Source of the DNA: a beta proteobacterium MWH-UniP1
Lineage (GTDB): Bacteria; Pseudomonadota; Gammaproteobacteria; Burkholderiales; Burkholderiaceae_A
Assembly (NCBI GenBank): GCA_036362785.1
Contig: CP143625.1
Span: forward strand, 559,401 to 623,400
Length of the DNA: 64,000 nt
Direction: 5' to 3'
This document shows positions 2 to 11,383 of the stretch, piece after piece. Made by a program: the position numbers and the translations under genes. A model generated the notes under the pieces. It was not told the DNA's origin and ran no database searches. It was given only the letters and a program-made list of their open reading frames with translations. The stretch's first letter is position 1. Every line of letters starts with the position of its first letter.

Positions 2-349
2 ATTACGCGGGCGAGTGTGCTGGATGTTCTGGCCCAAGACTATATCCGGACCGCAACTGCAAAGGGTATGAAAGAAAAGCAAGTCCTCTGGGGCCACGCG
101 CTTAAAAATGCGGCGGTGCCAATTGTCACGATTGTGGGTATTGGTATCGGCTTGTTGATCAGTGGTGCCGTGGTGACCGAGACGGTCTTTGCGATTCCGG
201 GTGTGGGCCGTCTTACGGTGGATGCGATCTTGCGTCGTGACTATCCCATCATTCAGGGCGTAATCCTGATCTTTTCTGCTGCCTATGTCCTGATCAATTT
301 ATTAATTGATCTCTCTTACATGATTTTCGATCCAAGAATTCGGTATTGA
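2..349 (+). CDS. Dipeptide-type ABC transporter permease, DppB-like (5' partial)
   Basis: Inner-membrane permease of a peptide/nickel-type ABC importer. The frame is open from the window edge, so only the C-terminal part (about 116 residues) is present. It holds an EAA-loop-like stretch (DYIRTATAKGM, then HALKNA) that in this family contacts the ATPases. After it come two hydrophobic membrane segments and the family's usual ending with a conserved FDPRIRY tail. A GTG at 17 is in frame but is only an internal codon. The next permease gene starts 1 nt after the stop. Family assignment is firm because all four downstream transporter partners follow in standard DppBCDF order; the substrate is unknown. 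Confidence 0.9.
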   Translation: MTRASVLDVLAQDYIRTATAKGMKEKQVLWGHALKNAAVPIVTIVGIGIGLLISGAVVTETVFAIPGVGRLTVDAILRRDYPIIQGVILIFSAAYVLINLLIDLSYMIFDPRIRY

Positions 350-350
350 T

Positions 351-1223
351 ATGTCCACAACTGGTTTGAGTTTGTGGTGGTCTGGGTTTCAGAAGCAGAC
401 CGCCACGCTGTATCGGCGACATCCATCGGCGTTAATTGGATCCATCGTCTTGATCTCTATGTGCCTGATGGCCTTCTTAGCCCCATACCTGGGGACGGTT
501 GATCCACAGGCGGTTGCGCCGATTAACCGCCTACAGTCCCCAAGCGCTGAGTTTTGGTTTGGCACCGATATGTTGGGCCGAGACGTCTATAGCCGGGTGG
601 TCTATGGTGCGCGCGTCTCGTTAACGGTTGGTATTGCGGTCGCCATTCTGAGCACAATTATTGGGTTGGCCATTGGATTGGTTACGGGCTTTTTGCGCTG
701 GGCAGATTCAGTGATCATGCGCATCATGGACGGATTGATGTCGATCCCATCAATTCTGTTGGCGATCGCCTTGATGGCCTTGACCAAGGCCAGTATTGAA
801 AACGTGATCATTGCGATTACGATTTCCGAGGTGCCACGGGTTGTGCGATTGGTGCGCAGTTTGGTGCTGTCTCTGCGTGAACAGCCCTATGTAGAAGCCG
901 CGACCGCATCCGGCACGCCGCTCATCAAAACACTGGTGAAGCACATTTTGCCCAACACGGTTGCACCGCTTCTGGTCCAGGCGACTTATGTCTGTGCGTC
1001 GGCCATGATCACGGAAGCGATTCTGTCGTTTATTGGTGCAGGAACACCACCGAATATTCCGAGCTGGGGCAACATCATGGCAGAGGCTCGCAGCATGTTC
1101 CAGATTGCAAGCTACTTGATCATTTTTCCCGCCATTTTCCTATCGCTTACGGTATTGGCCGTGAACTTTTTGGGCGACGGAATGCGCGATGCGCTTGATC
1201 CACGGCTTTCGCGGAGAATGTAA
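351..1223 (+). CDS. Dipeptide-type ABC transporter permease, DppC-like
   Basis: Second permease of the peptide-type importer, 290 residues, normal length for DppC/OppC. The N-terminus carries a cytoplasmic stretch and a first membrane helix (about residues 28-47), then the family motif FGTDMLGRDVYSRV (about 70-83). Several membrane spans follow, with the EAA-type loop YVEAATASGTPLIKT at about 180-195. It ends with DALDPRL, typical of the family. It starts 1 nt after the DppB-like stop and its stop is directly followed by the ATG of the first ATPase, so it is in one operon. Ligand specificity cannot be read from the permease. Confidence 0.93.
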   Translation: MSTTGLSLWWSGFQKQTATLYRRHPSALIGSIVLISMCLMAFLAPYLGTVDPQAVAPINRLQSPSAEFWFGTDMLGRDVYSRVVYGARVSLTVGIAVAILSTIIGLAIGLVTGFLRWADSVIMRIMDGLMSIPSILLAIALMALTKASIENVIIAITISEVPRVVRLVRSLVLSLREQPYVEAATASGTPLIKTLVKHILPNTVAPLLVQATYVCASAMITEAILSFIGAGTPPNIPSWGNIMAEARSMFQIASYLIIFPAIFLSLTVLAVNFLGDGMRDALDPRLSRRM

Positions 1224-2237
1224 ATGGCAGCTCAATTAAATAAATCAGTGCCCGTTCTCGAAGTTCGGGATTTAAAAACTTATTTTCATACCCGAGACGG
1301 CGTCGTACGTGCCGTCGACGGCGTATCGTTTAAGGTTAATGCGGGCGAGACCCTGGCTGTGGTCGGAGAGTCCGGCTGTGGCAAGAGCGTGACATCGCTT
1401 TCAATCCTGCGCCTGATCGCATCGCCACCAGGTCGAAACGAAGGTGGTGAGATTCTTTTTCAGGGTGAAGATCTGCTCAAGGCCAGCGAGGCACGGATGC
1501 GTGACATCCGTGGCAACAAGATCTCCATGATCTTTCAAGAGCCGATGACTTCGCTGAATCCCGTGCTCACTATTGGCAAACAGATTTCGGAAGTGTTGGT
1601 CTTGCACCAGAACATGACCGAAGCTCAGGCCAAGGCCAAGGCCGTCGACTTGTTAAAGCTCGTTAAGATCCCCGAGGCCGAAAACAGAGTGAATCAATAC
1701 CCCCACCAACTCTCGGGCGGCATGCGGCAGCGGGTCATGATTGCCATGGCGTTGGCCTGTGACCCAACGGTGCTGATTGCGGACGAGCCAACGACCGCAT
1801 TGGACGTAACGATTCAGGCTCAGATTCTGAACCTGATGCGGGAGCTGCGCGATCGCACTGGCGCATCCATTGTTTTGATCACGCATGATCTTGGGGTTGT
1901 CGCCGAGATGGCTCAGCGGGTGGTGGTGATGTATGCCGGCAAAAAAGTCGAAGAGGCCGACGTGAAAGAACTTTTTGCCTCGCCCCTGCACCCTTACACC
2001 CGTGGTCTGATGAATTCCATGCCCAAGCTTGACGAAGAAGAATCCAAACGCCTGGAAGAGATTCCTGGCATGGTGCCATCACTTCGTGAGCCAATTGTGG
2101 GCTGTGCTTTTGCGCCCCGGTGTTCCCACGCGACTGAGAAGTGTCGCAAAGAGACGCCAGTCTTGGAACAAAAAAAATCAGACCACCTTGCTGCCTGTTG
2201 GCATTCTGAAAAATTTCTGTCTGGAGTTCATGCATGA
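1224..2237 (+). CDS. ABC transporter ATP-binding protein, DppD-like
   Basis: First nucleotide-binding subunit of the importer, 337 residues. Walker A GESGCGKS lies at residues 48-55, the ABC signature LSGGMRQRV near 166, Walker [13 protein letters not shown] near 183, and the switch histidine in LITHDLG near 217. The C-terminal part has the oligopeptide-transporter cysteine region (CAFAPRCSH...CR) seen in DppD/OppD, some of which bind an Fe-S cluster. The ATG follows the DppC-like stop with no gap, and the next gene overlaps its end by 4 nt (ATGA), so translation is coupled. Substrate is inferred only from neighbours: peptides or amides. Confidence 0.94.
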
Positions 2238-3217
2238 GCCAGCCTCAGCCTTTGCTGGAAGTTAAAGATTTAAAGAAGCACTATCCGATTCGCAAGGGGC
2301 TTTTTGGCCGTGTGTCGGGTCAGGTCCATGCGGTGGATGGGGTGTCGTTCACGATTGGCGAGGGCGAGACCCTTGGTCTGGTGGGGGAGAGTGGCTGTGG
2401 CAAGTCAACGGTGGGTCGAACTGTTCTCAAGCTGATTGATCCCACATCGGGCGAGATTAGCTGGCGCGGTCGACGCATTGATGGGTTAAGTCGGGCCAAT
2501 ATGCGGCCATTTCGCCAAGAGATTCAGGCGGTTTTTCAAGACCCCTACTCATCGCTCAACCCCCGCATGCGGGCAATCGATATTGTGTCTGAGCCGCTGA
2601 TCAACTTTGAGAAGTTCTCAAAATCGGCAGGCAGGGACCAGGTCGCCTATTTGTTTGAGAAGGTCGGCCTTCGCCCCGATCAGATGATTCGTTTCCCGCA
2701 CGAGTTTTCTGGCGGTCAGCGTCAGCGTCTGGGCATTGCACGTGCGCTCTCGGTGAAGCCTCGGCTGATCATGTGTGACGAGCCCGTCTCAGCACTGGAT
2801 GTATCCGTGCAGGCCCAGGTGATTAACCTGCTGATTGATTTGCAAAAAGAGTTCGGCCTGTCCTATCTGTTTGTGGCGCATGACTTGGCAGTGGTCCGGC
2901 ATATCAGTCACCGTGTGGCGGTGATGTATCTGGGTCGAATTGTGGAGTTAGCCGAAACGCGCACCTTGTTTGATAGCCCTAAGCATCCCTACACGGAAGC
3001 TTTGCTGTCAGCGGTACCCATTCCAGATCCAACACTTAAGCGTAAACAGATCGTGTTGCAGGGGGATGTGCCAAGCCCGATCAATCGACCATCGGGTTGT
3101 CATTTCCACACCCGCTGCCCTTATGCCCAGGAGCGTTGCCGCAACGAGGAGCCGGTCACGCGCGAGCTGTCACCTGGCCATATCGTGGCCTGTCACTTTC
3201 CAGTTAACGCCAAATAA
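2234..3217 (+). CDS. ABC transporter ATP-binding protein, DppF-like
   Basis: Second nucleotide-binding subunit, 327 residues. Walker [10 protein letters not shown] is at 51-59, signature [10 protein letters not shown] near 157, Walker [13 protein letters not shown] near 177, H-loop VAHDLAVV near 213. The C-terminal extension [14 protein letters not shown] matches the DppF/OppF cysteine cluster. It overlaps the preceding ATPase gene by 4 nt. With the two permeases this gives a full translocation machine, but no family-5 periplasmic binding protein is visible in the window. That gene is expected upstream of position 1. Confidence 0.94.
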
Positions 3218-3231
3218 CCGTCGGGGGTCCT

Positions 3232-4359
3232 ATGGCTGCATTGACGAATCCGGTCTCGTTAACACAAGACTTATTGCGGTTTAACACCATCAATCCCCCT
3301 GGCCAAGAGGCAGCCTGTGCCCGTTATCTTGGCGATGCGTTAAGCAAGGTCGGGTTTTGCTGCAAGTACAAAGAGCTCGCCCCGAATCGACTCAGCCTGG
3401 TGGCCACCATCGGTGGCCAGGAGGGTCGTCTGCCACTTGGGTTCACTGGCCATATTGACACGGTTCCCTTGGGTGGCGCTACCTGGACGAAAGACGCTTT
3501 TGGTGAATCACTTGAAGGCGGAAAGCTCTTTGGTCGTGGTTCCTCGGATATGAAGAGTGGTGTTGGTGCCTTTGTCGCAGCGGCTATCGCCAGTGCCGAT
3601 GAACTGCGCGACTCTGCAGGGGTAACTATGGTGATCACGGCAGATGAAGAATGTGGCTGTGGCGGTGCTAAGCAGTTGGTAGAAGACGGAACGCTTCTTG
3701 GAAACGTTGGCGCATTGATTGTGGGCGAACCAACCAACAACTATCCGTTGGTGGGCCACAAGGGCGCACTCTGGTTAGAGGCGGTCGCCAAAGGGGTGAC
3801 GGCCCACGGCTCAATGCCTGAGCGCGGCGTGAACGCCGTCTACAAAGCGGCCAAAGCGGTGATGGCTTTGGAAAATTTCCATTTCCCAGATTGCAAGCAT
3901 CGGCTGATGGGATCGCCAACATTAAACGTGGGTAATTTCTTTGGTGGCATGAATATCAATTCGGTGCCGGATTCTGCCCGTATTGGCATTGATATTCGTA
4001 CGGTTGCGGGCATGAACCATGCGGATGTGAAAGCCCGAGTGCAAGAAACAATTGGACCAGACTTAGAGCTCAATACCCTGGTTGATGTCGGCCCGGTCTT
4101 CACCGAGCCAGACAACGACTGGGTTCAGCAGGTCTTTGGCGTCATGGAAAAGCAGCTTGGCGAACCGCCACAGGCCAAAACCGTGTCGTATTTTACAGAC
4201 GCCGCTATTTTGCATCAGGCCTATGTCAATACCCCCACGGTTGTGCTTGGTCCCGGTGAGGCCCAGATGGCCCATCAGACCGACGAATACTGCCTGGTCG
4301 ATCGCTTGGAGCAGGGCTTTGACGGCTATCGTGATCTGATCCGTGCTTGGATTAAATAA
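3232..4359 (+). CDS. M20 family metallopeptidase (ArgE/DapE/CPG2-like)
   Basis: Zinc-dependent amidohydrolase of the ArgE/DapE/carboxypeptidase G2 superfamily, 375 residues. Metal ligands are visible in order: GHIDTVP with His74 and Asp76, GRGSSDMKSG with Asp106 (bridging ligand), and ITADEECG with Glu139-Glu140 (catalytic base and ligand). A dimerisation domain follows (about 170-290), then a last conserved His near HQTDEY. The gene starts 14 nt after the importer operon, so it probably hydrolyses the imported compound by cleaving an N-acyl, N-succinyl or peptide bond. ArgE or DapE identity cannot be claimed: neighbours are catabolic, not arginine or lysine biosynthetic. Confidence 0.88.
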   Translation: MAALTNPVSLTQDLLRFNTINPPGQEAACARYLGDALSKVGFCCKYKELAPNRLSLVATIGGQEGRLPLGFTGHIDTVPLGGATWTKDAFGESLEGGKLFGRGSSDMKSGVGAFVAAAIASADELRDSAGVTMVITADEECGCGGAKQLVEDGTLLGNVGALIVGEPTNNYPLVGHKGALWLEAVAKGVTAHGSMPERGVNAVYKAAKAVMALENFHFPDCKHRLMGSPTLNVGNFFGGMNINSVPDSARIGIDIRTVAGMNHADVKARVQETIGPDLELNTLVDVGPVFTEPDNDWVQQVFGVMEKQLGEPPQAKTVSYFTDAAILHQAYVNTPTVVLGPGEAQMAHQTDEYCLVDRLEQGFDGYRDLIRAWIK

Positions 4360-4370
4360 AGAAATAAATC

Positions 4371-5657
4371 ATGAGTAATCTGATTCGAGTATCCGCAACA
4401 CAGGCCGCAACGGAAATAGCTCAACAGCGCCTGAAACCCTCAGCATTAGTGGCTGCTTATCTTGAGCGAATTGATGCGCGTGAGCCGCAAGTTGGTGCCT
4501 TTGATCACGTGGCACGTGACACAGCGATGGCCTTGGCAAAGCAATTTGATCAGCAAGCGCCGAGCGGACTGCTCTTTGGTATTCCGATTGGTGTGAAGAA
4601 TCTAATCGACACCAAAGATATGGTGACGACCTATGGCTCGCCGATTTACCAGAACCATCGTCCTGCAGTAGATGCGGCCTGTGTGGTGCAGTCGAAAAAA
4701 CAGGGTGCAATCGTCTTGGGTAAAACCGTGACCACTGAATTTGCGGTCTTCAATCCCGGTAAGACCGCAAACCCCCACAATCTCGACCATACGCCCGGCG
4801 GGTCATCGAGCGGATCGGCTGCGGCAGTGGCCGATCGTATGTTGCCCCTGGCTTTTGGCACCCAGACCGCGGCATCGATTTATCGGCCGGCATCGTTTTG
4901 TGGTGTGGTGGGCTACAAGCCAAGCTTTGGCACGATTGTCCGTGCAGGCGCAAAGCCACTTGCAGACTCACTCGACACCATCGGTACGCTTGCGAATTCA
5001 GTACAAGACGCCGCTTTATTTGCTGCAGCGGCTGGCGCCCGTCACGACTTGGTGCTTAAAAGTGGTGTGACCAAGAGTACGCCACGTATTGGTGTATGCC
5101 GAACCTATGAATGGGCTTTTGCGCAACCTGAGACGCAGCAGACGCTCGAAGCCTGCGCACATCAGTTAAGTGGTTCGGGTGCGAAGGTGGTGAAGTTTGA
5201 GCTTCCCAAGCCATTTCAGGGCTTGGTGGCCGCCCAGATCGATATCATGACCAAAGAGTCTGCCATGGCGTTGAGCGCTGAATATGAGTACAGTCGTTCC
5301 ATGCTGTCGACCAAACTGATCGAAGTGATTGAGCAGGGCCTGCGTGTGACCGATGCTCGATTGTTGGAGGCTTATGCGATCGTGGATCAATGCCGCCGTT
5401 TACTTAACGACATTTACAAAGATTTTGACGCGCTGTTGGCGCCTGCCGCCCGGGGCGAAGCGCCGGAAGGCTTGGCTGCAACTGGTGATCCAATTTTCAG
5501 CCGTATGTGGACGGCTTTAGGCAATCCTGGCGTGGTGTTGCCCTGGGGTAAAGGGCCCAATGGCCTGCCAGTGGGCGTGTTGTTGGCCGGCCGTTATCAG
5601 GCAGACTACGCATTATTGGAAGTGGCCCGTTGGGCCGAGCAACAACGGGGAGACTAA
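4371..5657 (+). CDS. Amidase (amidase signature family)
   Basis: Amidase-signature hydrolase, 428 residues, on the short side for this family. The Ser-cisSer-Lys triad can be placed: Lys76 in GIPIGVKNLID, the glycine/serine-rich motif GGSSSGSAAAV at 143-153, and the nucleophile region GTQTAASIYRPASF with Ser169. The usual GTDTGGSIRIPA is altered here to GTQTAASIYRPA, but the serine is kept. It probably releases ammonia or an amine from a carboxamide in the cytoplasm. It starts 11 nt after the M20 gene and is followed by the carbamoylase-type gene, so it belongs to the same catabolic operon. GatA is excluded by context and by absence of gatB/gatC. Confidence 0.88.
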   Translation: MSNLIRVSATQAATEIAQQRLKPSALVAAYLERIDAREPQVGAFDHVARDTAMALAKQFDQQAPSGLLFGIPIGVKNLIDTKDMVTTYGSPIYQNHRPAVDAACVVQSKKQGAIVLGKTVTTEFAVFNPGKTANPHNLDHTPGGSSSGSAAAVADRMLPLAFGTQTAASIYRPASFCGVVGYKPSFGTIVRAGAKPLADSLDTIGTLANSVQDAALFAAAAGARHDLVLKSGVTKSTPRIGVCRTYEWAFAQPETQQTLEACAHQLSGSGAKVVKFELPKPFQGLVAAQIDIMTKESAMALSAEYEYSRSMLSTKLIEVIEQGLRVTDARLLEAYAIVDQCRRLLNDIYKDFDALLAPAARGEAPEGLAATGDPIFSRMWTALGNPGVVLPWGKGPNGLPVGVLLAGRYQADYALLEVARWAEQQRGD

Positions 5658-5659
5658 TC

Positions 5660-6910
5660 ATGCTGGCACCGGTGAATCCCAAAATTAATGCTGATCGGCT
5701 TTGGAAAAGCCTGATGGACCTGGCCAAGATTGGCGCCACCGAAAAAGGGGGTGTCCGTCGATTGGCCTTGACCGCATTAGATGGTCAAGGCCGTGATCTG
5801 GTGGTGTCTTGGTTTAAAGAAGCCGGTATGTCAGTCCGCGTGGATCGCGTCGGCAATATTTTTGCCCGGCGTGCTGGCAAAAAAGACCTGCTACCCGTAG
5901 CAACCGGTAGCCATATTGATACCCAGCCATCAGGCGGCAAATTTGATGGCAACTATGGCGTATTGGCGGGCCTGGAAGTCGTGCGCACACTCAATGATCT
6001 TGGCATTGAAACCGATGCACCGATCGAAGTCTGCGTCTGGACCAATGAAGAGGGTTCTCGCTTCACGCCCGTGATGATGGGTTCTGGCGTCTGGGCGGGC
6101 GTTTTTTCTGCGGAGCATGTTCTTGCGCAAAAAGACATCGATGGCAAGCTGGTGGAAGACGAACTCAAGGCTATTGGCTATATGGGCCCAGAAGTGCTTG
6201 GCCCCGGTGGCAAGCAGCCCGGGTTCAAGGCCTATTTCGAATCGCACATCGAGCAAGGCCCTGTATTAGAAGACGCCAAGCTGCCGATTGGTGTGGTGAC
6301 TGGCGCGCTGGGTCAGCGTTGGTTTGATGTGGTGGTGACCGGCATGGAAGCCCACGCGGGGCCTACGCCTATGAATCTTCGCAAAGACGCACTCTTAGCG
6401 GCGTCGATACTGGTTCAAGAGGTGAATCGAATTGCGCTTTCAGAGTCGCCTTATGGCCGAGGCACGGTGGGCTCTATGCGGGTGAGCCCAAATTCGCGAA
6501 ATGTGATTCCAGGTCAGGTTGTTTTCTCGGTTGATTTTCGCCACCCCGATAATAATGGATTGGATCGTATGCATGCGCTCCTACAGCAGGCCTGCGATCG
6601 GGTCAAAGCAGCATGCGCCGTTGAGATCAGTCTCACCATCGTCTCGGAGTTTGCGGCAAGTGCCTTTGATGCGGGTTGTGTTGCCGCAGTTCGCAAGGCT
6701 GCTGATCAGCATGGCTTGTCTTCCATGGAAATCGTCAGCGGTGCGGCCCATGATGCGGTGTATGTCTCGCGGGTCTGCCCAACCGGCATGATCTTTATTC
6801 CGTGCAAAGACGGCATTAGTCACAACGAGATTGAAGATGCCTTGCCCGAGCATGTGGAAGCGGGCTGCAATGTGCTGCTTGGTGCAATGCTGAAGATGGC
6901 CAATGCTTGA
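5660..6910 (+). CDS. Zn-dependent hydrolase, N-carbamoyl-L-amino acid hydrolase / allantoate amidohydrolase family
   Basis: M20 hydantoinase/carbamoylase subfamily enzyme, 416 residues. The ATG at 5660 is preferred because GGGGAGA precedes it by a few bases; an upstream in-frame codon at 5630 lies inside the amidase gene. Family hallmarks are TGSHIDTQPSGGKFDGNYG (His85, Asp96) and WTNEEGSRF (Glu130-Glu131), then GALGQRWF and EAHAGPTPM in the lid/dimer region, and SHNEIE near the C-terminus. Members remove ureido or imino groups from N-carbamoyl amino acids, allantoate or ureidoglycine. It overlaps the following M81 gene by 1 nt. The exact substrate is open. Confidence 0.87.
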   Translation: MLAPVNPKINADRLWKSLMDLAKIGATEKGGVRRLALTALDGQGRDLVVSWFKEAGMSVRVDRVGNIFARRAGKKDLLPVATGSHIDTQPSGGKFDGNYGVLAGLEVVRTLNDLGIETDAPIEVCVWTNEEGSRFTPVMMGSGVWAGVFSAEHVLAQKDIDGKLVEDELKAIGYMGPEVLGPGGKQPGFKAYFESHIEQGPVLEDAKLPIGVVTGALGQRWFDVVVTGMEAHAGPTPMNLRKDALLAASILVQEVNRIALSESPYGRGTVGSMRVSPNSRNVIPGQVVFSVDFRHPDNNGLDRMHALLQQACDRVKAACAVEISLTIVSEFAASAFDAGCVAAVRKAADQHGLSSMEIVSGAAHDAVYVSRVCPTGMIFIPCKDGISHNEIEDALPEHVEAGCNVLLGAMLKMANA

Positions 6911-8385
6911 TGAAGGTACTGGTCGCCCGACTTAATCACGAGACCAACACCTTTTCCCCGGTAATCACCGATCGGGAGAGCTTTGAGCCAAAGCTTGGCC
7001 GTGCGGCTAGAGAAGAGCAGGTGGTTGGCAATACCGCGATGACTGCTTTTCTTCGGTATGCCGAGTCGCTGCCGAATGTACGCGTAGTGACCCCTTTATC
7101 GGCGATGGCCAATCCGAGTGGGTCAGTGCTGGTGGACGCTTATGAGTGGCTTTGTGATCAGATCCTGAGCGAGGCTAGCGATACGGATCTTTTCTTGCTG
7201 GATCTGCACGGCGCCATGGTGGTTGAGGGTGGTCGTGATGGCGAAGGCGAATTATTGGCTCGAATTCGGCAGGCGGCACCACAGGCAAAGATCTATGTGG
7301 CCCTGGACCTGCACGCCAATGTGACCCAGCTCATGGTTGACAATGTAGACGCCATGTTAAGTTTTAAGACGTATCCCCATGTGGATATGCAAGAGACTGG
7401 TGCACATCTGGTACGAATAGCGGAAAGCGATCTTAACGGCAAGACACGTTCCATCACCGCATGGCGCCAATTGCCATTGCTATCGCACACGCTGCACAGC
7501 AATACCCAAGAGGGTGCCATGCAGCGGGCGGTCGAGGCTGCCAAACGTGCCGAGCAGACACCGGGAGTTCTTGCGGTGTCGATTCTGGCTGGCTTTTCGT
7601 TGGCGGACTTTGCCGATGCTGGCGTGTCGGTCGTGGTGGTGGCGGATGGTGATGCGGCCTTGGCCCAGCAGGTGGCCAATGAGATTGGCGATCAGATCTG
7701 GTCGGATCGCGAGGGCTTTGTCTATCGGAGTGCAGCGCTAAAGGATTCTCTTCAGGAAGCCAAGCAGTTGTCTGAGGGTTCTGCAGGCAAACCCATTTTG
7801 CTCTTGGATCATAGCGATAACGTCATGTCGGGCGGCACCTGTGACACGCTAGATGTTTTGTCCGCCGCTCTGCGTGCGGGTCTTGAATCGATCACGGTTG
7901 GCCCCGTCTGTGATCCAGCTGCAGTAGCCCAGGCGATTTCAGCTGGCCTGGGCGCAGAACTTGAATTGGCGCTGGGCAATCGCTTCCCGCGCCCCATCCC
8001 TGAATTGAGTCCTAGCCCATTAATGCTTCGTGGCCGGGTAGTTCATATTAGTGACGGCACTTTTAAGGTTCGCGGCCCAATCTACACGGGTGCGACATTT
8101 TGCATGGGCCGCTCAGTTGCGTTTGATATTGGTACAGCCATCATTGTCGTGACCGAGAAGCGGATGGAGCCACTGGATATTGGGATCTTTGAGTGTGTCG
8201 GTATCGACTGCACCCAATATCGGTACATCTTGCTAAAGTCCAGAATGTACTGCCGGCCGGTCTTCGGTCCACTTTGTGCCGCCATGGTGGAATGTGATTC
8301 CGATATCGGAGGCCCCACCTCTTCGGATTACAGATTCTTCCGGTTCGAAAAATTGCGGCAGCCGATTTTTCCGCTAAATCACTGA
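6910..8385 (+). CDS. M81 family metallopeptidase (MlrC-like)
   Basis: Protein of the M81 family, named for MlrC, which degrades linearised microcystin in sphingomonads. It is 491 residues long, the usual size for the family. The N-terminal motif LNHETNTFSP (residues 8-17) and DLHGAMV (about 97-103) are family signatures with likely metal ligands, and DLHANVT and the C-terminal half are also present. The ATG at 6910 overlaps the preceding TGA (ATGA), and is preferred over a TTG 3 nt upstream. As the last gene of the importer/hydrolase operon it probably opens or shortens the imported peptide-like substrate. Most family members are uncharacterised, so substrate is not assigned. Confidence 0.86.
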   Translation: MKVLVARLNHETNTFSPVITDRESFEPKLGRAAREEQVVGNTAMTAFLRYAESLPNVRVVTPLSAMANPSGSVLVDAYEWLCDQILSEASDTDLFLLDLHGAMVVEGGRDGEGELLARIRQAAPQAKIYVALDLHANVTQLMVDNVDAMLSFKTYPHVDMQETGAHLVRIAESDLNGKTRSITAWRQLPLLSHTLHSNTQEGAMQRAVEAAKRAEQTPGVLAVSILAGFSLADFADAGVSVVVVADGDAALAQQVANEIGDQIWSDREGFVYRSAALKDSLQEAKQLSEGSAGKPILLLDHSDNVMSGGTCDTLDVLSAALRAGLESITVGPVCDPAAVAQAISAGLGAELELALGNRFPRPIPELSPSPLMLRGRVVHISDGTFKVRGPIYTGATFCMGRSVAFDIGTAIIVVTEKRMEPLDIGIFECVGIDCTQYRYILLKSRMYCRPVFGPLCAAMVECDSDIGGPTSSDYRFFRFEKLRQPIFPLNH

Positions 8386-8408
8386 TTGCTGCAGCTTTTA
8401 CAATCTTG

Positions 8409-8429
8409 TGGCCGCTTTTGTCGCGGCCA
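8409..8429 (+). terminator. Possible terminator hairpin after the hydrolase operon
   Basis: A 7-bp inverted repeat TGGCCGC / GCGGCCA around a 7-nt loop lies 24 nt after the M81 stop. There is no U-tract, so intrinsic termination is only plausible. Confidence 0.4.
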
Positions 8430-8465
8430 GAGCCGAAGTAAACTCTGGGTTTTAATTGGCTAAAC

Positions 8466-8846
8466 ATGCTTTATTTCTGGCTCTACAAAATTCACATCAC
8501 CAGCGTGATTCTCAGCGTGTCTCTCTTTGTCGCGCGTGGATTAGGCGTGCAACTAAAGCAAGCATGGCCTATGCAGGCCATGTGGCGGCGTTTAAGTGTT
8601 CTGATTGATGTGGTGTTGCTAAGTGCAGGTAGCGGCCTGTGGTGGGCGGTCTCGCACAACCCGCTGAATGAGCCGTGGCTCGCGTTAAAGCTGTTCTTGG
8701 TGGTGGTGTATATCGTGCTGGGCTCTTTCGCTTTGAAGCGGGCAAAAACACTAAATCAAAAGCGAATCTTTTTTGCCATGGCCTTAATCACGATTTTCTG
8801 GGTTGCGGCAATCGCACTCAGCCGCGATCCACTATTCGGACTCTAA
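8466..8846 (+). CDS. SirB family integral membrane protein
   Basis: Small membrane protein of 126 residues with four hydrophobic segments (about 8-28, 44-63, 70-90, 98-116). Its pattern, starting MLYFWLYKIHITSVILSVSLF with conserved lysine, histidine and a central tryptophan pair, matches the SirB/YchQ family named from Salmonella. Molecular function is not established. The gene stands alone between the hydrolase operon and a convergent DadA-like gene. It is probably transcribed from its own promoter in the 80-nt gap before it. Confidence 0.8.
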   Translation: MLYFWLYKIHITSVILSVSLFVARGLGVQLKQAWPMQAMWRRLSVLIDVVLLSAGSGLWWAVSHNPLNEPWLALKLFLVVVYIVLGSFALKRAKTLNQKRIFFAMALITIFWVAAIALSRDPLFGL

Positions 8847-8857
8847 GTCACGTCAGT

Positions 8858-8885
8858 GCTGAAAACCCAGAAAAGGGTTTTCAGC
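8858..8885. terminator. Hairpin between convergent genes
   Basis: An 11-bp perfect inverted repeat, GCTGAAAACCC / GGGTTTTCAGC with a 6-nt loop, fills the 55-nt gap between the SirB-like gene and the convergent DadA-like gene. The position suits a shared terminator, but neither side has a long U-tract. Confidence 0.55.
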
Positions 8886-8901
8886 GCGTTGACATCAGCT
8901 T

Positions 8902-10179
8902 TTAGGCGGGGTGTGTTTTCAAATTACTCGATGGCACGCCAGCATATGCGTTTTCGAATTCGGATGTTGCGCTGATGATCTCAGCAAGCATTTCCGCCGT
9001 ACCCGCCGACAGCGTCCAGCCCAGGTGACCATGGCCAGTGTTGTAAAACACATTAGGTTTGGTCCCCATGCCGACTCTGGGCATCATGTTGGGCATCATG
9101 GGCCGCAGGCCCGCCCAGGGTACAACTGATCGTGTGCTGACATTTGGGAAGCACTCATTTACCCACTTAATGAGCGGTTTAATCCGGTCTGCACGAATAT
9201 TCCAGTTTTTGCCATTGAACTCAGCTGTGCCAGCAACACGGAAACGATCAACGCCAAGCCGGCTGGTAACGAGTTTGGTCTCATCATCCAGCAGGCTGAC
9301 ATTGGGGGCCCCTTGTTGGCTTACTGCATCGTTTAGGTTAACGGTGATGGAATAGCCCTTCACCGGGTAGACATTGAGTCGATCACCGAGTTGTGCTGCC
9401 AAATTACGGCTCTCAATTCCCGCGCACACCACAACATTGTCAAATTGTAGTGATTCGGTTTTTCCGTCTCTGCGAATAGTTAATTTGACTTGCTTTCCAT
9501 CCGAAGAAAGGCTTTCTACTTCGCAGCCAAACAAAATCTTGACCCCATGGCGTTGGACTGCTTGTGCAAGTCCGTGGGTGAATTTGTGAATGTCGCCCGT
9601 GGAATCGCTCTCTGTGTAATAACCGCCGTAGTATGTGCCGCTTAGCGTGGGCTCGATTTGTTTCATCTCCGCTGGTGACACGGTCTGCCGCGCCAGGCCA
9701 CCCACAGCCAGCAGTTTTGACACCCGCCCTGCGTGATCAAAGCCGGCTTTATTGCGATAAATATGCAAGATGCCTTCTTTTTTTAAATCAAAGTCAATCG
9801 ATTCTTCTTTTGCCCAGTCAAAGAGGTGTTGCCGGGCATCGATAGCCATTTTGGCGGTAGCGATCGTGTTGGCTTCGTAGTTTGGGATGGATGCGATGAA
9901 CTCGGCAAACCAGGAGAGCTTGTGCCAGCTGGGTTTCAAGTTGATCAGCAGTGGCGCGTCTTTTTTGAAGATCCACTTGATGCCTTTGTAGACCGTGGAC
10001 CAGTGATTCCAAACCTCAGCGTTTGATGCCGAGAGCTGTCCGCCATTGGCAAAGGATGTTTCCATTGCCGCATAACGCTGGCGCTCGATCAGCGTGACGT
10101 TGTAACCGCGTTTAATTAATGCATAGGCGGTGGTCACACCCGTGATGCCACCACCAATCACTACAAATGAATTGGTCAT
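8902..10179 (-). CDS. FAD-dependent amino-acid dehydrogenase, DadA-like
   Basis: Flavoprotein of the DadA/DAO family, 425 residues. Its N-terminal dinucleotide-binding fold is VVIGGGITGVTTAYAL (GGGITG at 9-14), followed by the acidic end of beta-2 in LIERQ and a SFANGGQLSAS motif typical of D-amino-acid dehydrogenases. The C-terminus GHGHLGWTLSAGTAEML is the second FAD motif. It oxidises a D-amino acid or another small amino acid to the 2-oxo acid and passes electrons to the respiratory chain. The ATG at 10179 is preferred; the frame runs further upstream but only through the riboswitch leader. Control by a glycine riboswitch suggests glycine, or a pathway that yields glycine, as its physiological link. 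Confidence 0.88.
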   Translation of the reverse strand: MTNSFVVIGGGITGVTTAYALIKRGYNVTLIERQRYAAMETSFANGGQLSASNAEVWNHWSTVYKGIKWIFKKDAPLLINLKPSWHKLSWFAEFIASIPNYEANTIATAKMAIDARQHLFDWAKEESIDFDLKKEGILHIYRNKAGFDHAGRVSKLLAVGGLARQTVSPAEMKQIEPTLSGTYYGGYYTESDSTGDIHKFTHGLAQAVQRHGVKILFGCEVESLSSDGKQVKLTIRRDGKTESLQFDNVVVCAGIESRNLAAQLGDRLNVYPVKGYSITVNLNDAVSQQGAPNVSLLDDETKLVTSRLGVDRFRVAGTAEFNGKNWNIRADRIKPLIKWVNECFPNVSTRSVVPWAGLRPMMPNMMPRVGMGTKPNVFYNTGHGHLGWTLSAGTAEMLAEIISATSEFENAYAGVPSSNLKTHPA

Positions 10180-10235
10180 GTGAAGGTCCTTGTCACGTCG
10201 GGGGTTGGGCCTAATCGCGACATGCGGGTCAGGCG

Positions 10236-10416
10236 CCCCCTCTGTTTTTGGACCTGAGAGATTCGCGGGCCAGGGCGGCCTGCTTGCTCCTGCGGTGCTT
10301 TGGCGGACGTGCGCCAAAGGCTCTTCAGAGAATTATTCGGTAGCGGTCCTTTTGCCTGAGAGTTTCCGGGGCGGTTGCTCCTTCGGCGCCACCGCTTTGG
10401 GTGGGCTCTCCCGATA
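10236..10416 (-). promoter_or_regulatory. Tandem glycine riboswitch
   Basis: Read on the minus strand, aptamer 1 (about 10416-10340) shows GGGAGAGCC, then GCGCCGAAGGAGCAA, then CTCTCAGGCAAAAGGAC. Aptamer 2 (about 10335-10236) shows TCTGAAGAGCC, then GCACCGCAGGAGCAA, then CTCTCAGGTCCAAAAACAGA. These are the conserved core blocks of glycine riboswitch aptamers, in the usual tandem arrangement with a short linker. The leader ends 57 nt before the DadA-like ATG. A GGGGG/CCCCC pairing lies between aptamer 2 and the start codon, and no U-tract is seen, so control may be at translation. Established targets are mostly glycine cleavage or glycine transport genes. Confidence 0.92.
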
Positions 10417-10474
10417 CCTACTGGCTTTGCACTCTAGGCAGGAATTGAGAGCCAGTCAAGCCCCGTAGCGGGCT

Positions 10475-11383
10475 TCAGAGCAAGGAAGTCAACTTTTTGG
10501 CGGTTTTTTTCAGGGGCGGCAGCCACTCCATGATGCGAGAAAGGGGGACACGAGACGTTGGCGCGTGAACCGCAAGCGCCGCAATGACCTTGTTATCCTC
10601 GTTTTTTATTGGGACCGCCAGAGCGATGAGGCCGGGGATAAATTCCTCTGCATCAATTGAGAAATCTTTGCGCTGAATATCAGTGATTACTTTTTCAAGT
10701 TTTTCTTTATTCGTAATAGTGTTAGCAGTAAATTTCTCTAATTTCAGGTGATCCAAGATTTTTTTTCTATCACCCGTATCAAGCTGAGATAAGAATAACT
10801 TTCCGCTCGCGGTGCAATGTAGGGGCACCCGGGATCCGATCTCCAAGGTCAATCGAAGTGGCCATCGTGCCTCAACACGGTCGAGATACAAGACTTCAGT
10901 GCCATCCAAGATTGTTAAGTTACAGGTCTCTCCCACCTCGCCAACCAGTTGGGCAAGTGCCTGGTGCCTTAGGCTTCTCAAGGTGTCGTTGTTCAGTGTG
11001 TTGAGCGCGAGCGTTCGAAGTTCGCGCCCCACACCAAAACCTTTGGCGTTCACGCTTTGGGTCAGAAACTGCTGAGCAGTAAGTTGCAGGCAGAGACGAT
11101 GGACGGTCGTCTTTGGCAATTGCAGGCCATCTGCAATATCTGCGAGCGCAACTGGACTTGATGCGCGCGCTATAAATTTCAATACATCCAGGCTTCGGCG
11201 AGCTGTGCTCTGCTGCCGCGAATCTTGCTGAAATTCACTCTCAGGGGATTGGTGCACTACGGCTTTTGTTGCGGTGCGTCGAGAAGGGGTAATTCGCTTT
11301 ACTAGATTTTTCTTGATTTTCGGTACGCTGCGTTCCACTTTATTTCCTTGGGCTCTTTCTAAAATTGGAACAAATTGTTCCAT
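10475..11383 (-). CDS. IclR family transcriptional regulator
   Basis: 302 residues. A basic, low-complexity N-terminal extension of about 60 residues precedes the IclR winged helix (about 63-120, RRSLDVLKFIARASSPVALADIADGLQLPKTTVHRL in outline). The effector domain follows (about 135-300), with the typical LHCTASGKLFLSQL and SIDAEEFIPGLIALAVPI segments. It is divergent from the GMC oxidoreductase gene, with only 17 nt between the two start codons. It therefore most likely regulates the GMC/TRAP operon, and possibly itself, in response to a small aromatic or organic acid. The long N-terminal extension could partly be a misplaced start. Confidence 0.88.
   Translation of the reverse strand: MEQFVPILERAQGNKVERSVPKIKKNLVKRITPSRRTATKAVVHQSPESEFQQDSRQQSTARRSLDVLKFIARASSPVALADIADGLQLPKTTVHRLCLQLTAQQFLTQSVNAKGFGVGRELRTLALNTLNNDTLRSLRHQALAQLVGEVGETCNLTILDGTEVLYLDRVEARWPLRLTLEIGSRVPLHCTASGKLFLSQLDTGDRKKILDHLKLEKFTANTITNKEKLEKVITDIQRKDFSIDAEEFIPGLIALAVPIKNEDNKVIAALAVHAPTSRVPLSRIMEWLPPLKKTAKKLTSLL

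Follow-up and report, generated by a model that had tools for sequence, protein, structure and literature searches.

What does a tandem glycine riboswitch control when the gene behind it belongs to the D-amino-acid dehydrogenase family, and in which direction does it act? The question is raised by a sequence-only reading of the window, by which we mean the whole 64,000 bp stretch of the genome of beta proteobacterium MWH-UniP1 analysed here (contig CP143625.1, positions 559,401 to 623,400); it placed such a riboswitch at 10236-10416, in front of a DadA-like dehydrogenase, and saw in it a hint of glycine oxidation. We consider it highly probable that the element is an ON-switch acting on the translation of a DadA6-type enzyme, and that this enzyme converts glycine to glyoxylate and ammonia by oxidation.

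Two adjacent glycine aptamers upstream of a PRK12409-type gene

Both aptamers passed the gathering score of the glycine riboswitch family RF00504 (32 bits) in an Rfam cmscan search: aptamer 1 scored 71.6 bits (E 5.7e-13) at 10423..10334 (-), and aptamer 2 scored 39.9 bits (E 1.3e-4, local) at 10330..10240 (-). A whole-genome search extended aptamer 2 to 10338..10232 (-), with 47.6 bits over model positions 1-94. The two matches are adjacent and read on the minus strand into the one gene downstream (8902-10179). The sequence-only reading was therefore right about a tandem element that is significant in a covariance-model search and leads into a DadA-like gene; its interval overlaps both aptamers but omits the 5′ terminus of aptamer 1, and it is given without a strand. 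Its claim of conserved core blocks in both aptamers holds except that aptamer 2 has CCGCAGG where CCGAAGG is expected. The binding pocket of aptamer 1 is GCC/GGC and that of aptamer 2 is ACC/GGU.

The features of the leader and its flanking genes are given in Table 1. The promoter-like site is suggestive by position only, one such site being seen against 1.3 expected by chance, and the IclR-type regulator gene is probably not part of the switch. The linker hairpin was also found in the leaders of relatives. The coding strand shows no terminator-like site from the end of aptamer 2 to the gene, and transcriptional control was set aside for the window leader on this ground; U-tracts are present in some gcvT leaders of relatives.

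Table 1. Features of the riboswitch locus in the window.
Feature	Position	Strand	Description
IclR-type regulator gene	10475..11383	-	Pfam PF01614, PF09339; stop about 50 nt before aptamer 1
Promoter-like TTGACT-17-TAGAGT	10431..10459	-	Consensus scan; ends eight bases before aptamer 1
Aptamer 1	10334..10423	-	P3a binding-pocket stem GCCGAAGG / CUCUCAGGC intact; RF00504
Aptamer 2	10232..10338	-	Weaker pocket ACCGCAGG / CUCUCAGGU with A-U closing pair and C.U mismatch; RF00504
P2 loop of aptamer 2, CACGUC	10306..10311	-	Proposed partner GACGUG at 10199-10194
AGGUCC, 3′ strand of aptamer 2	10250..10255	-	Shine-Dalgarno partner in ligand-free fold (RNA folds, swap test)
Linker hairpin	10200..10240	-	G tract after aptamer 2 and C tract close the stem; minimum free energy fold
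GACGUG, just 5′ of Shine-Dalgarno	10194..10199	-	Kept as GACG, GACU or GGCG in relatives
Shine-Dalgarno region AAGGACC	10185..10191	-	Sequence; sequestered in predicted free fold
PRK12409-type DadA gene	8902..10179	-	ATG at 10179; NF009074; predicted glycine dehydrogenase/oxidase

Gene family and relation to the Cupriavidus dadA6 locus

The controlled gene had been assigned to the D-amino-acid dehydrogenase family, in agreement with its score of 713.7 bits against NF009074 (PRK12409, D-amino acid dehydrogenase; equivalog cut-off 494). It remained below the cut-offs for canonical DadA (NF001933, 339.6 versus 383 bits) and for the ThiO equivalog (TIGR02352, 137.6 versus 250.8 bits), and a ThiO-like gene with a better score lies elsewhere in the window genome.

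The original description of Cupriavidus necator DadA6 as a glycine oxidase is reportedly that of Claassens in 2020. Two studies from 2025 use the same assignment, one deleting 'glycine oxidase (dadA6)' in C. necator (PMC11879842) and the other assigning glycine oxidation in this species to the D-amino acid dehydrogenase DadA6 (PMC12421819). The identity of the dadA6 gene was tested by means of the published deletion-verification primer dadA6-rev, a site for which was present, with one mismatch, in 10 of 60 Cupriavidus genomes (H16 not among them). In nine of these ten the primer lies approximately 1.2 kb upstream and points at a PRK12409 gene with a tandem riboswitch. In the seven Cupriavidus genomes that were fetched more fully, the identity between the PRK12409 protein and the window protein is 68-71%, and one of the nine genomes is that of C. 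necator N-1 (a 4-kb replicon stretch is 100% identical to NC_015727.1), whose dadA6-locus protein shares 71% identity with the window protein. The forward dadA6 primer was not found near the PRK12409 gene in the Cupriavidus genomes examined (H16 not among them) and had no match in five Cupriavidus genomes; its single match (L143) fell in an unrelated locus and was discarded.

Judged by primer position and protein identity, the window gene is the ortholog of the Cupriavidus dadA6 locus and, since DadA6 has been described as a glycine oxidase, it probably serves to oxidise glycine to glyoxylate under induction by glycine. The window genome encodes malate synthase, which would consume glyoxylate. 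The little glycine oxidation flux found in a study of P. putida concerned ThiO, a different enzyme.

Conservation of the riboswitch across relatives

The window protein and its closest relative served as queries against one genome per species (84,980 species), and the best 80 of the 483 loci found were searched with a covariance model derived from 34 aptamers in the window genome and related genomes. Aptamer 1 lies approximately 245 nt before the ATG at 76 of these 80 PRK12409 loci and a 77th contig ends within the leader with aptamer 2 visible, giving a riboswitch at 77 of the best 80, a count that is silent on distant relatives because the loci were chosen as the closest. The covariance model detected no riboswitch at L054 and L088, where an amidohydrolase gene lies directly upstream of the dadA-like gene, or in the 733 nt upstream of the gene at L099. 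L054 and L088 are secondary losses in the maximum-likelihood tree described below; at L054 the motif that precedes the Shine-Dalgarno remains although the riboswitch has been replaced by the amidohydrolase gene.

The 80 loci belong to beta- and gammaproteobacterial genomes, from genera that include Polynucleobacter, Limnohabitans, Cupriavidus, Trinickia, Comamonas, Polaromonas, Janthinobacterium, Stutzerimonas, Halopseudomonas, Nitrincola and Endozoicomonas. One PRK12409 locus of Comamonadaceae type (L041) sits on a contig that bears the name Akkermansia muciniphila; mislabelling or contamination of the assembly is the most likely cause.

A set of 185 genomes of the class, drawn independently and including the window genome, contained four PRK12409 genes of at least 697 bits, all with a tandem RF00504 element immediately upstream, and a fifth of 518 bits with no RF00504 match upstream. 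The riboswitch was likewise absent upstream of the 24 lower-scoring DadA-like genes sampled (L119-L142) and of the window genome's own canonical DadA, and we therefore rejected the idea that DadA genes in general carry a glycine riboswitch. The riboswitch-bearing PRK12409 genes form one clade in a maximum-likelihood tree (support 100/99), and a second, separate small clade with the same support holds canonical-type DadA genes with riboswitches. Canonical-type DadA (NF001933) stands behind glycine riboswitches at L010, L011, L025 and L027, all from other Burkholderiales, so that the association either originated or has been maintained in two subfamilies of DadA.

The riboswitch could be real and the enzyme a D-alanine or D-amino-acid dehydrogenase to which glycine is merely a signal, for example if D-alanine turnover were tuned at high glycine, glycine being a competitor of D-alanine in the synthesis of the cell wall. 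This account draws on the name given by the family models and on the canonical-type clade in four Burkholderiales relatives. It is unlikely, however, given that canonical DadA is encoded by a separate, riboswitch-free gene in the window genome, that the ortholog in C. necator is regarded as a glycine oxidase and that the best solved-structure relatives are, weakly, glycine oxidases, with no closer solved DadA.

Genomic context and other glycine riboswitches

The window genome is a single contig of 2.05 Mb. As the sequence-only reading had supposed, the target of this leader is not the glycine cleavage operon, which has a riboswitch of its own: the one other tandem glycine riboswitch in the genome stands before gcvH and gcvP, with gcvT further on. 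The order in that region (C1:262794-267803) is riboswitch-gcvH-gcvP-gcvT, not gcvT first.

Two other leaders were considered as further dadA cases and rejected. At L009 a tandem glycine riboswitch (1389-1590, -) precedes a serine hydroxymethyltransferase-like (glyA) gene. L014 (1501-1790, +) is a gcvT leader whose aptamer 2 is of the dadA6 type and which shows the CGUC/GACG complementarity discussed below, possibly as a result of leader exchange between gcvT and dadA6.

Convergent to dadA, the region 351-8385 of the window encodes a peptide ABC transporter, two M20 peptidases, an amidase and an MlrC-type gene, and an amidohydrolase gene (TIGR01891) was found near approximately 34 of the best 80 of 483 loci, mostly upstream and on the same strand. 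The neighbouring transporter and hydrolase genes may supply amino acids to the DadA-type enzyme; hydrolases that release amino acids would make sense beside an enzyme that oxidises glycine.

Predicted Shine-Dalgarno sequestration and ON-switch

At low glycine, aptamer 2 would be unfolded and its 3′ strand AGGUCC would pair with GGACCU and block ribosomes. At high glycine, aptamer 1 would fold and aptamer 2 with it, and the folded aptamer 2 would take up the AGGUCC strand, leaving the Shine-Dalgarno free and allowing the enzyme to be made. The predicted ligand-free fold of the window leader contains this pairing, between AGGUCC (10255..10250) and GGACCU beside the start codon. The 3′ strand of aptamer 2 and the Shine-Dalgarno strand covary between species: the pairing of 3′ strands with their own Shine-Dalgarno strands had a mean of -12.9 kcal/mol versus -10.6 when partners were permuted (none of 10,000 permutations as low), 12 non-redundant leaders gave -12.2 versus -9.4 kcal/mol (none of 20,000 as low), and ten newly fetched leaders, unused before, had a mean of -14.9. 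When aptamer 2 was imposed in constrained folds, the predicted accessibility of the Shine-Dalgarno rose from a mean of 0.25 to 0.51, with an increase in 71 of 77 leaders, which are related and do not represent 77 independent tests.

The pocket strings of aptamer 1 are the same in 75 of the 77 leaders. In aptamer 2 an A-U replaces the first G-C pair in all 77, with an added C.U mismatch in 31; this mismatch weakens the pocket, so that cooperative binding may be lost. In glycine ON-switches the pocket is retained in aptamer 1 or in both aptamers, in OFF-switches it is retained in aptamer 2, and the gcvT riboswitch of N. gonorrhoeae is a translational ON-switch by experiment (PMC13104608). The dadA6-type leaders have the anatomy of an ON-switch in two respects, namely a predicted ligand-free fold that hides the ribosome site until aptamer folding frees it, and a three-GC pocket conserved in aptamer 1. 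For MWH-UniP1 itself we infer that the leader binds glycine, that binding raises expression and that the enzyme acts on glycine. The earlier hint of a glycine-oxidising role gains support from this anatomy, from the riboswitch at 77 of the best 80 of 483 loci and from the orthology with Cupriavidus dadA6.

Glycine OFF-switches are known for sodium:alanine symporters (PMC13104608), and glycine binding might conceal the Shine-Dalgarno and lower the enzyme here also. We judge this very improbable, since the Shine-Dalgarno is predicted to be buried in the free state and exposed once the aptamer is folded, the sequestering pairing covaries and the best-kept pocket is in aptamer 1, as in ON-switches. 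A decayed riboswitch that has lost regulation, to which the pocket mismatch and low score of aptamer 2 in the window might point, is scarcely credible when exactly the same aptamer 2 pocket string is found in 31 of the 77 leaders, aptamer 1 stays close to the consensus and distant genera share the expression platform.

A candidate P2-loop pseudoknot

The P2 loop of aptamer 2 has CGUC, and the leader has GACG right before the Shine-Dalgarno. Complementarity of 4-6 nt between P2 loop and leader occurs in nearly all relatives, with co-changes. Both sides are altered in a Comamonadaceae group (AGUC and GACU), six further leaders have GGCG, with which G-U pairing is still possible, L077 and L061 are exceptions with one mismatch each, and L089 has neither motif. 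On the protein tree the AGUC/GACU combination has two origins by parsimony, of which the well-supported branches demand one only. Among the gcv leaders compared, L014 alone clearly shows the complementarity.

On these sequence grounds the P2-loop pairing makes a good candidate pseudoknot of the ON state. We also propose tentatively, with slightly less than even confidence, a joint reading in which DadA6-type leaders would be a distinct platform: in the glycine-bound state the P2-loop CGUC would pair with GACG, the resulting pseudoknot would clamp the ON state and the 3′ strand of aptamer 2 would be kept off the ribosome site.

Novelty and significance

The riboswitch class is known; its widespread DadA6-type target appears to be undescribed in the literature searched. 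Supplementary tables excepted, the papers searched contain no joint mention of 'glycine riboswitch' with 'D-amino acid dehydrogenase' or 'dadA', and a glycine riboswitch at dadA6 is unmentioned in the text of PMC11879842 and PMC12421819. A count of twelve glycine-metabolism orthologs has been published, with dadA possibly listed in its supplementary tables (PMC3766115).

The sensor-enzyme pair offers a prediction of how glycine oxidation is regulated in many beta- and gammaproteobacteria, including C. necator, in which the glycine oxidation route diverts glycine in formate-assimilation engineering. Glycine oxidation would thereby join glycine cleavage and transport as a target of glycine riboswitches, and there is testable ground for renaming the conserved PRK12409 family, now 'D-amino acid dehydrogenase', as glycine dehydrogenase/oxidase.

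Comparison with known systems

The enzyme shares membership of the DAO superfamily with the glycine oxidase ThiO, and among solved structures glycine oxidases match it best (E 4e-12), although it falls far under the ThiO equivalog cut-off. Canonical DadA (PRK00711/NF001933) is of the same family, with approximately 37% identity, but forms a separate clade. The gene resembles that of C. necator DadA6 in being its ortholog at a riboswitch locus. Like the tandem glycine riboswitch of gcvT (RF00504; N. gonorrhoeae), the leader has two aptamers of which the first is the better match, and as in N. gonorrhoeae gcvT (PMC13104608) a strand of aptamer 2 is predicted to hide the ribosome site without glycine. 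Unlike the gcvT riboswitch, the dadA6-type leader controls a flavoenzyme gene rather than the glycine cleavage system, and it differs from gcv leaders in the GAAGAG and ACCG[A/C]AGG variants of its aptamer 2 and, L014 excepted among the gcv leaders compared, in a P2 loop that is complementary to the leader.
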